A stretch of DNA of 30,135 nt from a virus. The DNA is taken from the IMG/VR virus record IMGVR_UViG_3300024520_000354, positions 1 to 30,135 of that record; one strand, written 5' to 3'. Numbering within the stretch: position 1 is the first letter of the stretch; every line of letters begins with the position of its first letter. Under the pieces are notes generated by a model, which made no database searches, was not told where the DNA came from, and was given only the letters and a program-made list of their open reading frames with translations. Positions 11,782-30,046 of this stretch are shown piece by piece. A program made the translations under genes and the position numbers.

Positions 11782-12258
11782 ATGGCAGCTTTATCGGCGG
11801 ACACTCACGTTCCGGTTGTAGGATCGAACGTGACAAAGTACGCATTCAAGGCGGTGGGCGCGGACACGTTCTTTCGCGGTGCGCTGGTCTTCGGTGACGC
11901 GACGAACGGCAAGGCTCAAGTGACGACCCCGGCAGCGGGCGACGTGTTCCTGGGCGTTTGCGTCAAGCAGACTGTCGCAGCGGCCGCGGACGATCTCGTC
12001 GAGTGTTACATCACGGGCACGTTCGCGTTTGCGATGGCGACACCGGCAGAGGGCGACGTGGGCGACGTGATGGTCGTCGACGTGACGGGCACCGCAAGCG
12101 ACAATCAGGCCGACGCCGTGACGGGCGCGGACGCGACTCTCGCGGCAAACGACATCCTGATCGGGAAAATCTCGGCGATTTCGAACGAGGACACGACTCG
12201 AGCGATAGTCACGATCAATCCCGGTTGGATCTATTCCGCCACGCTCGGCTGGGTCTAG
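11782..12258 (+). CDS. Head decoration/stabilisation protein
   Basis: A 158-aa beta-rich, Ala/Asp/Thr-rich protein starting at ATG 11782, with AGAGGAGA upstream. Its position between protease/scaffold and major capsid is that of Mu-like and lambda gpD-like decoration proteins. The repeats AAGDVFLGVCVKQT and TPAEGDVGDVMVVDVTGTA are typical of capsid-fibre or decoration proteins with small beta domains ('A-x-G-D-x-[FV]-x-G-[VI]'). It probably coats or cements the capsid surface. Assignment is by composition and synteny. Confidence 0.65.
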   Translation: MAALSADTHVPVVGSNVTKYAFKAVGADTFFRGALVFGDATNGKAQVTTPAAGDVFLGVCVKQTVAAAADDLVECYITGTFAFAMATPAEGDVGDVMVVDVTGTASDNQADAVTGADATLAANDILIGKISAISNEDTTRAIVTINPGWIYSATLGWV

Positions 12259-25956: not shown

Positions 25957-26203
25957 GGGCTCGTTCGACAGCTCGGGTGGGAAGTGGTTCCGCTGGGCCG
26001 TCGAGAACTGGAAGGTGATTGTACCGCTGGGGGCGCTCCTGTCCGCTGTGGCCGGCGCCGCTACGGTCTACAGCGTGGCGCCCCCGGTCTGCCCCGACTG
26101 CCCGCGGTGCTTTGAGTGCCCCGAGCCCGAGGCGGTAAAGGCCGAGTGTGTTCTGAGAATCGACCGGTGCCTGGACTGGATTAGCGACTCAAAGGGGGAT
26201 TAA
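25937..26203 (+). CDS. Small membrane protein with Cys-rich C-terminus
   Basis: An 88-aa protein. ATG 25937 follows a GCGGG/AAGGGG run. There is a basic cytoplasmic N-terminus, one transmembrane helix (27-46), then VCPDCPRCFEC, four cysteines at three-residue intervals, with two more Cys later. In an oxidising periplasm these could form disulfides; in the cytoplasm they could bind metal. It belongs to the same cluster as the holin-like gene and may be an antiholin or spanin partner. No lipobox is present. Confidence 0.5.
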   Translation: MAARTRKGSFDSSGGKWFRWAVENWKVIVPLGALLSAVAGAATVYSVAPPVCPDCPRCFECPEPEAVKAECVLRIDRCLDWISDSKGD

Positions 26204-26553
26204 TGGCCTACACGACAAAGACGGTAGAGGACGTTGACGTCGGCGGAACGGCCGCCACCTACACGGCTGTCCCCGGGACCGGGTCGGGAAACGGCTTCCA
26301 GATCGCGAACGACCCTGCCCACCGGACGATTGTTGACGTGGATGCCGCTGGCGGCGCGGTCGTCGTGACCCTGGTCACTCCCGGGACCGACGACGGGCTG
26401 GCGGTAGCCGACCGTACCGTGACGGTGGGCGCCGGGACGCACAAGTTCATCCCGCTGCGACGGAACTACAAGCAGAGCGACGGGAACAACTACCTGGACT
26501 TCGACGTCAGCGCCAGCGTTACCGTCGCGGCGATCAAAGTAACGGCCGAATAG
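26203..26553 (+). CDS. Small beta-sandwich (decoration-like) protein
   Basis: A 116-aa protein, ATG 26203 overlapping the previous TAA. The pattern FQIANDPAHRTIVDVDAAGG, then VVVTLVTPGTDDGLAVADRT and TVTVGAGTHKF, is the one seen in small phage structural proteins with a beta-sandwich fold ('NDGxTxLxVxN...DGLAVxDRTVTVxAG'), usually found among capsid or head-fibre genes. It is probably a virion decoration component expressed late. It is set apart from the head module here, beyond the lysis-like genes. Confidence 0.55.
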   Translation: MAYTTKTVEDVDVGGTAATYTAVPGTGSGNGFQIANDPAHRTIVDVDAAGGAVVVTLVTPGTDDGLAVADRTVTVGAGTHKFIPLRRNYKQSDGNNYLDFDVSASVTVAAIKVTAE

Positions 26554-26670
26554 ACCCCCGGCCGCTTGCGAGGCTTGCTCGTGCCAAGAGAGCGGCGCTT
26601 CAGGCTTGCCCCAGGACGTAGGAATCTCGCGTCGATTCTCGGGGCTTGTGGGGCGTTGCGGTTCCGGGAA

Positions 26671-26686
26671 TGTTCCACGTGGAACG
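26671..26686. promoter_or_regulatory. parS-like palindrome
   Basis: TGTTCCACGTGGAACG holds a perfect 14-bp palindrome (26672-26685). It equals 15 of 16 positions of a TGTTCCACGTGGAACA-type parS, and the core matches the parS form described for Pseudomonas. ParB proteins bind such sites to position chromosomes or plasmids. It lies in a 206-bp intergenic region upstream of a regulator. No parA or parB is seen in the window, so a host ParB, or one encoded outside the window, would have to bind. Also in this region, AGGCTTGC occurs twice, 31 bp apart (26571 and 26602). Confidence 0.65.
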
Positions 26687-26724
26687 TCCGTCATATTGGC
26701 CGGGTCGGTTTGCCCGATTCGCCC

Positions 26725-26753
26725 TTGACTTATGTCATACGTGGCGTCATACT
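26725..26753 (+). promoter_or_regulatory. Promoter of the ribbon-helix-helix gene (leaderless)
   Basis: TTGACT (26725-26730), a 17-bp spacer and CATACT (26748-26753) form a good sigma70-type promoter. Transcription would start about 7 nt downstream, at or next to the ATG at 26760, and no Shine-Dalgarno sequence is present. The mRNA is therefore expected to be leaderless. Confidence 0.6.
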
Positions 26754-26764
26754 TACTGTATGAC
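26734..26764. promoter_or_regulatory. Operator of three 7-bp half-sites at 12-bp spacing
   Basis: GTCATAC occurs at 26734-26740 and 26746-26752, and its inverse GTATGAC at 26758-26764. Start-to-start distances are exactly 12 bp. The middle copy overlaps the -10 element and the third the start codon. Ribbon-helix-helix repressors bind such repeated short sites cooperatively, so autoregulation by the gene at 26760 is likely. Confidence 0.6.
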
Positions 26765-26921
26765 AAAGCAGCTCGACTCCTACCGCGCATCCCCGACCCT
26801 GCTCAGACGAGTCAAGGCCGCGGCGAAACGTTCGCGGATCTCCAAGTCAGAATGGATCAGAAGGGCGCTGACCGACGCGCTACGCAACGGAACCAGAAAG
26901 GACCGGGAGGCCGGGACGTGA
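26760..26921 (+). CDS. Ribbon-helix-helix DNA-binding protein
   Basis: A 53-aa protein from ATG 26760. A short strand (LDSYRASP) is followed by two helices (TLLRRVKAAAKRSR, then ISKSEWIRRALTDALRNG). This is the Arc/MetJ/CopG pattern, in which a dimer inserts a beta ribbon into the DNA major groove, and the 'S-K-S-E-W-I-R-R-A-L' helix is typical. It is probably an autorepressor of the promoter on top of it. With the nearby parS-like site, a role in partition or maintenance (as for ParG/omega-type RHH proteins) is possible, but no ParA-like ATPase is adjacent. Confidence 0.75.
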   Translation: MTKQLDSYRASPTLLRRVKAAAKRSRISKSEWIRRALTDALRNGTRKDREAGT

Positions 26922-26977
26922 GCGTAGACCCCCGCCTTGACGTTCCGTCTCCCGGTCCTGTTTTAGAAGGAGAGAAC

Positions 26978-27172
26978 ATGCCTAGAATGGTTGACTGTTC
27001 CTACTGCGACCTGTCCTTTGACGGCGAGGACCGGCTGTACCTCCACGCTGAGGGCCGCTACTGCTCGGAGCAGTGCGCTCACCGTGACGGGGCGCCTGAT
27101 GACGGGCCGGTGAGCAACGTTCCGTTTGACATCGAACCGGAGCCGGAAAGCGGTTTCGAGGTGCTGAAATGA
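26978..27172 (+). CDS. Small zinc-finger protein
   Basis: A 64-aa protein. ATG 26978 follows AAGGAG. An in-frame GTG 26918 in a GTGA overlap would add 20 residues and is also possible. Residues 7-36 contain CSYCDLSFDGEDRLYLHAEG followed by RYCSEQC: two CxxC-like pairs and a His, a zinc finger resembling C2H2/TRASH-type folds. The tail is acidic. Probably a regulatory or protein-binding factor. Confidence 0.65.
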   Translation: MPRMVDCSYCDLSFDGEDRLYLHAEGRYCSEQCAHRDGAPDDGPVSNVPFDIEPEPESGFEVLK

Positions 27173-27309
27173 CGAAGTGGAACGTCAAATACTCGTGGCG
27201 CGGTGAGACTTTCAACGGCGGGCAGCACCCCACCAAGCGGGCCGCTATCGCCGAGTGGCGTCTATTCATCGCGGACGGCTGGCGGTGTTGGGTGGAGCCT
27301 GTGCGATGA
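27169..27309 (+). CDS. Small Trp-rich hypothetical protein
   Basis: A 46-aa protein in an ATGA overlap with the previous gene and another with the next. It reads KWNVKYSWRGETF, then a helix KRAAIAEWRLFIADGWRCWV. It has six tryptophans for its size and is basic. Function not known. The tight coupling on both sides supports it being translated. Confidence 0.55.
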   Translation: MTKWNVKYSWRGETFNGGQHPTKRAAIAEWRLFIADGWRCWVEPVR

Positions 27310-28457: not shown

Positions 28458-28811
28458 ATGAACGAAGGAAAGACCGACTATCGGTCCATGTTCGACCGGA
28501 CGTTTCTAGCGTCGTTCGACTTGGAAGGCAAGGACCGAATCGTCACGATCTCGTCCGTGGAGGCGGGTGAGATCAAGGACGACAAGGGCAACGCCGAGCG
28601 CAAGCCGGTTATCAGTTTCGAAGGCAAGAAACTGAAACTGTGCTGTAACAAGACGAACTGCAAGGCCATCGCCGGGATGTACGGCAACGTTGTCGAGGCG
28701 TGGGTAGGCAAGCGGATCACGCTCTATGCGACCGTTGTCGCTGCGTTCGGTAGCGAATGGGAAGCGATTCGAGTACGGCCGACGAAACCGGCCGAGCGGG
28801 GGGCGGCGTGA
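28458..28811 (+). CDS. Conserved phage recombination-module protein
   Basis: A 117-aa protein. ATG 28458 follows GGGAGG. The pattern FLASFDLEGKDRIVTISSVE, then KPVISFEGKKLKLCCNKTNC and VGKRITLYATVV, is that of a small phage protein commonly found beside PD-(D/E)XK exonucleases ('GKxxxxxI..V..GE ... KPVIxFxGxxKxLxLNKTN ... WVGKRITLY'). An OB-like, single-strand-DNA-associated fold has been suggested for similar proteins. Its function is not proven. Confidence 0.65.
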   Translation: MNEGKTDYRSMFDRTFLASFDLEGKDRIVTISSVEAGEIKDDKGNAERKPVISFEGKKLKLCCNKTNCKAIAGMYGNVVEAWVGKRITLYATVVAAFGSEWEAIRVRPTKPAERGAA

Positions 28812-28975
28812 AGCACGTCAAGATATTTTGCGGCGAAGGTCAGGAAGAACTCCAATCGCGAATTGATTACTACAGCGACGAGTGCGAAGGGATCCCGATC
28901 GATGTAGCAGTGGCTCAGAGCGAAGATGAGCACGCCGTAAGAATAACCGTCGCCGTGCTGTACGAGATCATCTAA
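28808..28975 (+). CDS. Small hypothetical protein
   Basis: A 55-aa protein from GTG 28808 (GTGA overlap) ending at TAA overlapping ATG 28975. It is acidic, with a small alpha/beta layout (VKHVKIFCGEGQEEL, then AVRITVAVLYEII). It lies between two recombination-type genes and is probably co-translated with them. No motif recognised. Confidence 0.55.
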   Translation: MKHVKIFCGEGQEELQSRIDYYSDECEGIPIDVAVAQSEDEHAVRITVAVLYEII

Positions 28976-29730
28976 TGAACCCCCTACACTGGTCCCAGCT
29001 ATCAAAGTTACGCGAGAGCCCCGCACACTACCGCTACTACCTCGACAACCCGCAGCGCCCCACGACGGCAATGACGTTCTCGACGCTGGTACACGCGGCG
29101 CTGTTCGGACCGGGGCCGTACGGGCTGCCGGTCGTCTTTGACGGGTCGCGGCGTGGCAATGCGTGGAAGGCGTTCAAGGAAGACAACGTCGGCTCTGAGA
29201 TCGTCACCAGCGACGAGGTAGACCGGGCCTCCGACGTAGCCGCAGCGGTGAGCTCCGACCCCGTAGCCGGGCCGCTAGTCGAGAAGGGCGTAGCGGAGCG
29301 GACGATCCAGTGGAAGGTCGGCGATCGGGAGTGCGAGGGTACGCCCGACAACGTGCTAGCCGGCGCGACGATCGACTTGAAAGTCTCGCCCGTGAACAGC
29401 CCGGCACGGTTCCCGGCACACGCGGCGCGGATGGGCTGGCACGGTCAGCAAGCTTGGTACGCGAACGGGTTGAAGGCTAGCGGTTGGGTCGAGGTACCCG
29501 AGTGCAAGATCATCGCCGTTGCGCCTAAGCCCCCGTACTGCCCGGTAGTCTACGACCTGACGCCTGACGATCTCGAGATGGGCGCGAAGCTGTGGCGGTC
29601 GCTGTTCGAGCAGCTGCTCGTGTGCGAGGCGTCGGACGTCTGGCCCGGGTACGTGCAGACCGAGATTCCGTTGAACATCCCGGACGGTGACTTTGAGATC
29701 GTGATGGGCGGCGAAACAATCGAGATGTAA
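28975..29730 (+). CDS. RecE-like PD-(D/E)XK exonuclease
   Basis: A 251-aa protein from ATG 28975, overlapping the previous stop. It shows the RecE/Cas4-like nuclease layout: LRESPAHYRYYLDNP, MTFSTLVHAALFGP (His40), CEGTPDNVLAG (Asp125), IDLKVSP (Asp134, Lys136) and the HGQQAWY motif (Gln158, Tyr162). Such 5'-3' exonucleases resect double-stranded DNA for annealing-based recombination. No RecT/Redbeta/Erf homologue is seen next to it. The nearby conserved protein at 28458, or the pair at 3391-4613, may provide related functions. Confidence 0.75.
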   Translation: MNPLHWSQLSKLRESPAHYRYYLDNPQRPTTAMTFSTLVHAALFGPGPYGLPVVFDGSRRGNAWKAFKEDNVGSEIVTSDEVDRASDVAAAVSSDPVAGPLVEKGVAERTIQWKVGDRECEGTPDNVLAGATIDLKVSPVNSPARFPAHAARMGWHGQQAWYANGLKASGWVEVPECKIIAVAPKPPYCPVVYDLTPDDLEMGAKLWRSLFEQLLVCEASDVWPGYVQTEIPLNIPDGDFEIVMGGETIEM

Positions 29731-30001: not shown

Positions 30002-30028
30002 GCGGGCAGTCTCGCCCCTGCCCGCTTT
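30002..30028 (+). terminator. Terminator-type hairpin
   Basis: GCGGGCAG (30002-30009) pairs perfectly with CTGCCCGC (30018-30025) around an 8-nt loop and is followed by TTT. The short T run makes it a moderate intrinsic terminator. Its loop and 3' arm (30010-30029) are identical to 104-123 near the other window end, where the 5' arm is missing. Confidence 0.55.
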
Positions 30029-30046
30029 GACTAGAAAGGAGAGCAG

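Follow-up and report, generated by a model that had tools for sequence, protein, structure and literature searches.

The question raised by the segment at positions 26725–26764 of this phage DNA is how the short gene that begins there is controlled, and what the repeated motifs laid over its start stand for. The DNA analysed, referred to here as the window, is the whole of virus record IMGVR_UViG_3300024520_000354, a linear stretch of 30,135 bp which is probably an incomplete genome and in which, from the open reading frames, all genes apparently run on the + strand. Small early-type genes occupy the left end of the window, the genes for terminase, portal, capsid and tail follow from about 6.5 to 26.5 kb, and a RecE-type exonuclease (28975–29730) together with further early-type genes lies 3' of the segment. 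The segment itself sits in a gap, since the last late gene ends at 26553 and the next set of genes begins only after it. No RNA families or tRNAs were found in the window.

Three copies of a single heptamer, found in the sequence and taken as putative operator boxes, mark this gap. Two of them read GTCATAC on the + strand, box 1 at 26734–26740, within the promoter spacer, and box 2 at 26746–26752, overlapping the -10 hexamer, while box 3 reads GTATGAC (that is, GTCATAC on the - strand) at 26758–26764 and is centred on the start codon. The sequence-only reading of this DNA had claimed two GTCATAC repeats and an inverted GTATGAC at exact 12-bp steps across the -10 and the start codon, and the coordinates bear this out, as the start-to-start distances are 12 and 12 bp, box 2 overlaps CATACT and box 3 covers the ATG. 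A fourth, imperfect box (GTCATAT, 26690–26696) is out of register and was left out of the count. In the 30-kb window neither GTCATAC nor GTATGAC occurs anywhere apart from these three places, and three single copies of a 7-mer are at the level given by chance (mean 2.55); it is their arrangement which stands out. This arrangement was assessed by looking for triples of any 7-mer, in any orientation, at an equal spacing of 8–25. When the whole window was shuffled, such triples turned up in 12 of 622 cases; shuffling the 237-bp gap region (26554–26790) gave them once in 15,000 trials, and dinucleotide shuffling of the 91 bp at the promoter (26700–26790) never in 40,000. Moreover, the remaining triples of the window are direct tandem repeats, and a single further triple of mixed orientation, with a spacing of 19, was found in 86 other loci, which total 831 kb and include one that overlaps the window. 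It is therefore very unlikely that the box arrangement arose by chance.

The internal symmetry of the boxes indicates how they are to be read. GTCATAC has the form GTNNNAC, which is symmetric at the box ends, and box 2 is the centre of an inverted repeat (I20) made by boxes 1 and 3, so that each box is better taken as the complete site of one dimer; the three half-sites proposed at first become, in this way, three dimer sites. The earlier description of the boxes as phased had to be given up as well. A step of 12 bp exceeds one helical turn, which makes the boxes rotate by about 50 degrees per step around the helix, and they are therefore evenly spaced without lying on one face of it.

The promoter in which the boxes are embedded is a sigma-70-like match formed by a -35 hexamer, TTGACT (26725–26730, + strand), and, 17 bp from it, a -10 hexamer, CATACT (26748–26753, + strand). 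It is the sole match of its kind in 26200–27300, where 0.1 would be expected; across the whole window sigma-70-like matches are no commoner than chance. Counting 7 bp past the -10, the predicted transcript start is 26760, the A of the ATG start codon (26760–26762, + strand), which agrees with the claim that this promoter places the start of the transcript on the ATG. The lack of a Shine-Dalgarno sequence, also claimed earlier, is confirmed by pairing with the 16S tail, which amounts to -1.5 kcal/mol for this gene against a background mean of -3.4 and a value of -8.8 for the next gene; many neighbouring genes do have a Shine-Dalgarno. Furthermore, third-position G+C is 0.77 from the ATG at 26760 onwards and 0.50 in the same frame upstream, a change which makes 26760 the likely start of translation. 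On a longer RNA, the AUG would be paired, as part of the 3' arm of a hairpin with a 7-bp stem (26746–26764; z -2.9 for the whole segment). As judged from these features of the DNA, the mRNA is probably leaderless, and the combination of autoregulation with leaderless transcription appears to be the most likely reading. The interpretation offered by the sequence-only reading is supported in part.

The gene itself (26760–26921, + strand) encodes a protein of 53 residues, MTKQLDSYRASPTLLRRVKAAAKRSRISKSEWIRRALTDALRNGTRKDREAGT, which is assigned by Pfam and PHROGs to the ribbon-helix-helix (RHH) proteins and is a putative autorepressor. As had been proposed from the DNA, it belongs to the RHH family: it scores 22.4 bits with Pfam PF01402 RHH_1, above the cut-off of 20.5 (E 1.1e-4), and matches phrog_7325 (CopG-like repressor) with an E of 4.4e-6. 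The single-chain AlphaFold model, of moderate confidence (pLDDT 68), has helices at residues 12–24 and 29–43, which would agree with the two helices of an RHH protein; its N-terminus is a helix and not a strand, although a chain modelled apart from its partner is not decisive on this point. Among the fold matches of the model the best are CopG chains (CopG E 3.6), with TacA1, MatP, CdbA and VapB also listed, and these matches are mostly RHH proteins, but with E above 1 for all of them. The PDB sequence matches were to designed repeat proteins and were set aside as not meaningful.

At its other end the gene is closed by a strong hairpin over the stop codon (26899–26965, + strand), detected by folding and overlooked in the earlier reading. 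Its arms (26899–26909 and 26949–26959) are a perfect 11 bp, and the fold reaches -41.7 kcal/mol (z -3.8, equalled in 0 of 200 shuffles); GTTTTA follows directly, with a short T run of four bases. Lying between the RHH gene and the one that follows, the hairpin probably acts as a terminator or attenuator, and it was missed by the terminator scan because its loop is longer than the 3–8 bases permitted there. With it the unit becomes self-contained, promoter, operator, gene and hairpin spanning about 240 bp. The next gene (26978–27172, + strand) encodes a 64-aa cysteine-rich, zinc-finger-like protein and is preceded by a strong Shine-Dalgarno, AGAAGGAG, so that the phage does use Shine-Dalgarno sites in this region. 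No toxin family match for this gene was found in Pfam or PHROGs. An RHH antitoxin with a toxin partner was thus rejected: a type II toxin-antitoxin pair has an adjacent, usually overlapping toxin gene, while here the next gene begins 56 bp past the stop codon, behind the strong hairpin, and has no toxin match in these two collections.

The explanation preferred for the whole, to which a probability of roughly two in three is given, is that the segment controls a small autorepressor gene placed where the late (structural) genes of an unclassified tailed phage give way to early-type genes, with a leaderless mRNA and with three RHH dimers side by side on the -10, the transcript start and the ATG. 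The RHH gene would be transcribed as a leaderless mRNA from TTGACT-17-CATACT, its product would dimerise through an N-terminal strand, and three such dimers would occupy the three boxes cooperatively, blocking RNA polymerase at -10/+1; this negative autoregulation would keep the level of the RHH protein low and constant. Read-through RNA from the late genes, in turn, would yield no RHH protein, because on it the start codon lies in the 7-bp hairpin and has no Shine-Dalgarno, and the short leaderless transcript alone would be translated. Since there is no other box in the contig, the only visible target of the RHH gene here is itself; its influence would extend to the early genes if transcription leaked through the hairpin or if further boxes stood in the part of the genome that is missing. 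In favour of an autorepressor count the boxes beyond chance, the RHH family, the promoter, the lack of a Shine-Dalgarno, the coding signal and both hairpins; against it count the lack of a relative with the same operator, the chance level of sigma-70-like matches window-wide and the T run of only four bases.

The gene might also be autoregulated and carry a leader, its transcript coming from an upstream promoter or from late read-through and its translation beginning at ATG 26670, at GTG 26679 or at 26760. The frame is indeed open upstream to 26646, the scan found no intrinsic terminator upstream of the promoter as far back as the last late gene, and the pairing energy upstream of ATG 26670 is somewhat better, at -5.3. 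Nevertheless, both the codon signal and third-position G+C fall upstream of 26760, an N-terminal extension would enclose a parS-like palindrome and the promoter within the gene, and the AUG would be hidden in the hairpin on any longer RNA, and we consider a leadered transcript unlikely. Another regulator, either a lost phage repressor or a host protein, might instead use the boxes as its operator and control the RHH gene, the RHH protein acting elsewhere. That the contig is linear and probably incomplete, and that the boxes are common to no RHH relative, would fit such a regulator, whereas the size of the boxes, their even spacing and their overlap with the promoter are like those of RHH autorepressors such as RelB, and the contig is without any further copy of the box; this possibility is rated as decidedly improbable. 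It seems even harder to accept, and we hold it to be very improbable, that the inverted repeat at 26746–26764 acts in the RNA, where its hairpin would hide the start codon of read-through transcripts, with the third repeat incidental: the 7-bp stem, whose 3' arm holds the AUG, and the z value of the whole segment are what would be expected, but box 1, at the same step, would be left unexplained, and a leaderless RNA from 26760 would hold only half of the stem. Finally, chance repeats over an ordinary small gene, suggested by the expected number of single 7-mer copies, are hardly credible in view of the local shuffles and of boxes placed over the -10 and the ATG of a gene for a DNA-binding protein.

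The autorepressor reading can be compared with several known regulators. The closest in layout is RelB, the RHH autorepressor of E. coli relBE, which binds half-sites of 12 bp whose spacing cannot be altered (PMC2812701). The likeness to RelB and relO consists of an RHH protein, its own promoter and adjacent 12-bp sites, all of this predicted in the present case. RelB differs in having its toxin partner as co-repressor and in recognising [A/T]TGT[A/C]A, while the phage switch has three boxes, another sequence and no adjacent toxin gene that could be recognised. With Arc and CopG the phage protein shares the minimal RHH size, and CopG is its best fold match, although it has no significant sequence match to either. 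The operators of Arc and CopG differ from the phage boxes in sequence and spacing, and YefM, whose operator is also of interest here, is not an RHH protein. CopG of pMV158 and Arc of P22 are RHH repressors of 45 and 53 residues (PMC4803016), CopG dimers dock side by side, as a chain, on their operator (PMC8251345), and the palindromes of the YefM operator stand 12 bp apart, one of them on the -10 (PMC4803016). As for the absence of a leader, the likeness to lambda cI and to PY54 cI and cro lies in a promoter so near to the gene that transcription would start on the AUG. These are HTH repressors with divergent promoters, in contrast with the single RHH gene, the one-directional genome and the predicted transcript start of the phage switch. 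The PY54 cI and cro mRNAs are leaderless, and that of lambda cI too (PMC4488713).

Searches of viral contigs, phages, plasmids and bacterial genomes found no relative with the same operator. The RHH protein gave no relatives in viral contigs, phages or bacterial genomes, and in Bifidobacterium plasmids no more than a weak match over 26 residues; not one of 84,980 bacterial and archaeal genomes has the exact box triple. A relaxed operator pattern had one viral match, which lies within AT-rich coding sequence, has no RHH gene with it and was taken as chance. The 80 loci collected around the alignment of the RecE-like exonuclease contained no RHH homologue, no 12-bp box triple and no parS site. 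For the rest of the phage, no near match to the last 8 kb of the window was found among 50,697 phage records, and a pattern-based search of 2.9 million viral contigs found no relatives of its terminase, its capsid or the protein at 28458.

Several observations on the window were made in passing. The phrog_21613 protein (28458–28811) is encoded a short distance upstream of the RecE-like exonuclease (28975–29730), and in Vibrio phage 1.029.O (L006) a phrog_21613 relative likewise precedes a YqaJ recombinase, which suggests a conserved recombination pair of phrog_21613 protein and exonuclease or recombinase. An identical 20-bp sequence, TCTCGCCCCTGCCCGCTTTG, stands at 103–122 and at 30011–30030, in gaps near both ends of the contig; its right-end copy belongs to a GCGGGCAG/CTGCCCGC hairpin and is perhaps a repeated terminator. 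The very start of the contig (1–98) is an array of GGTCGA/GTGGTCGAGGTC repeats, with periods of 6 and 12 and about 16 and 8 copies, which is possibly an assembly break point.

A second element of the gap is a parS-like site, TGTTCCACGTGGAACG, at 26671–26686, a palindromic sequence feature to which no strand is assigned. It contains a perfect 14-bp palindrome, GTTCCACGTGGAAC (26672–26685), from which it is 39 bp to the -35, 48 bp to the first box and 74 bp to the ATG, in keeping with the claim of a parS-like site about 50 bp upstream. P. aeruginosa parS1 is TGTTCCACGTGGAACC (PMC4368675). The phage site has 15 of its 16 bases in common with parS1 and is, by sequence, a 16-mer of the chromosomal type; it differs from P. 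aeruginosa parS1–4 in lying on a phage contig, in a single copy, and with no ParB recognised, a family search of the window genes near the segment having found no ParB gene.

The same 16-mer is widespread in viral DNA. It occurs in at least 120 viral contig stretches against 4 for a matched control palindrome, an excess of at least 30-fold over that control (loci L087–L166), and about 21 occurrences would be expected from the estimated 45 Gb. Among the matches listed there were 74 distinct contexts, 15 of them non-coding where 5.4 were expected (p 2.6e-4), an approximate statistic, given that genes were called by a greedy longest-ORF method which performs poorly around the RHH gene of the window, where it chose an antisense frame, and which was used for the other contigs only. 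In addition, 10 of 50 contigs with TGTTCCACGTGGAACG had further matches to GTTYCACGTGRAAC, 13 extra sites in total, and the reversed pattern gave zero. One viral contig (L150) carries two identical parS-like sites 24 bp apart at 11951–11990 and, about 320 bp from them, a third; obvious genes are few in this region. A gene with a ParB_N domain was present in 1 of the 50 contigs, compared with 4 of 50 exonuclease-related contigs fetched irrespective of parS; the contigs are fragments, possibly with host or plasmid sequence, and a missing ParB in them is no proof of its absence. None of the 50 other contigs with TGTTCCACGTGGAACG had an RHH gene above the family cut-off, so that the parS-like site is not tied to a switch of this kind, and the two need not be functionally linked.

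In this context, the nearest precedent found is that of the parS mimics of SGI1, a mobile element with partition sites for the ParB of another replicon (PMC10954446). The likeness is that of a mobile element bearing the partition sites of another replicon, and the difference is that SGI1 uses a plasmid ParB while the phage site matches the chromosomal type. No prior report of host-type parS sites in phages without ParB was found in the open-access literature. It might be speculated, as a tentative and rather unlikely proposal, that host ParB loads at the parS-like site and, whether it slides or spreads across the promoter or tethers the phage DNA to the machinery of segregation, acts jointly with the RHH repressor in setting the state of the early promoter, and that, more generally, many phages borrow host ParB through host-type parS sites for maintenance or sensing.

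If the autorepressor reading is true, the phage would have a very compact switch, with promoter, operator, a 53-residue repressor and a probable terminator in about 240 bp, and one in which translation would be tied to the regulated promoter, as only the leaderless RNA would expose the start codon. Such a switch would be useful to know, yet it stays within a well-known kind. The parS-like site is less expected than the switch and may merit more attention since, if phages commonly bear host-type partition sites without a ParB of their own, they may borrow the segregation protein of the host.
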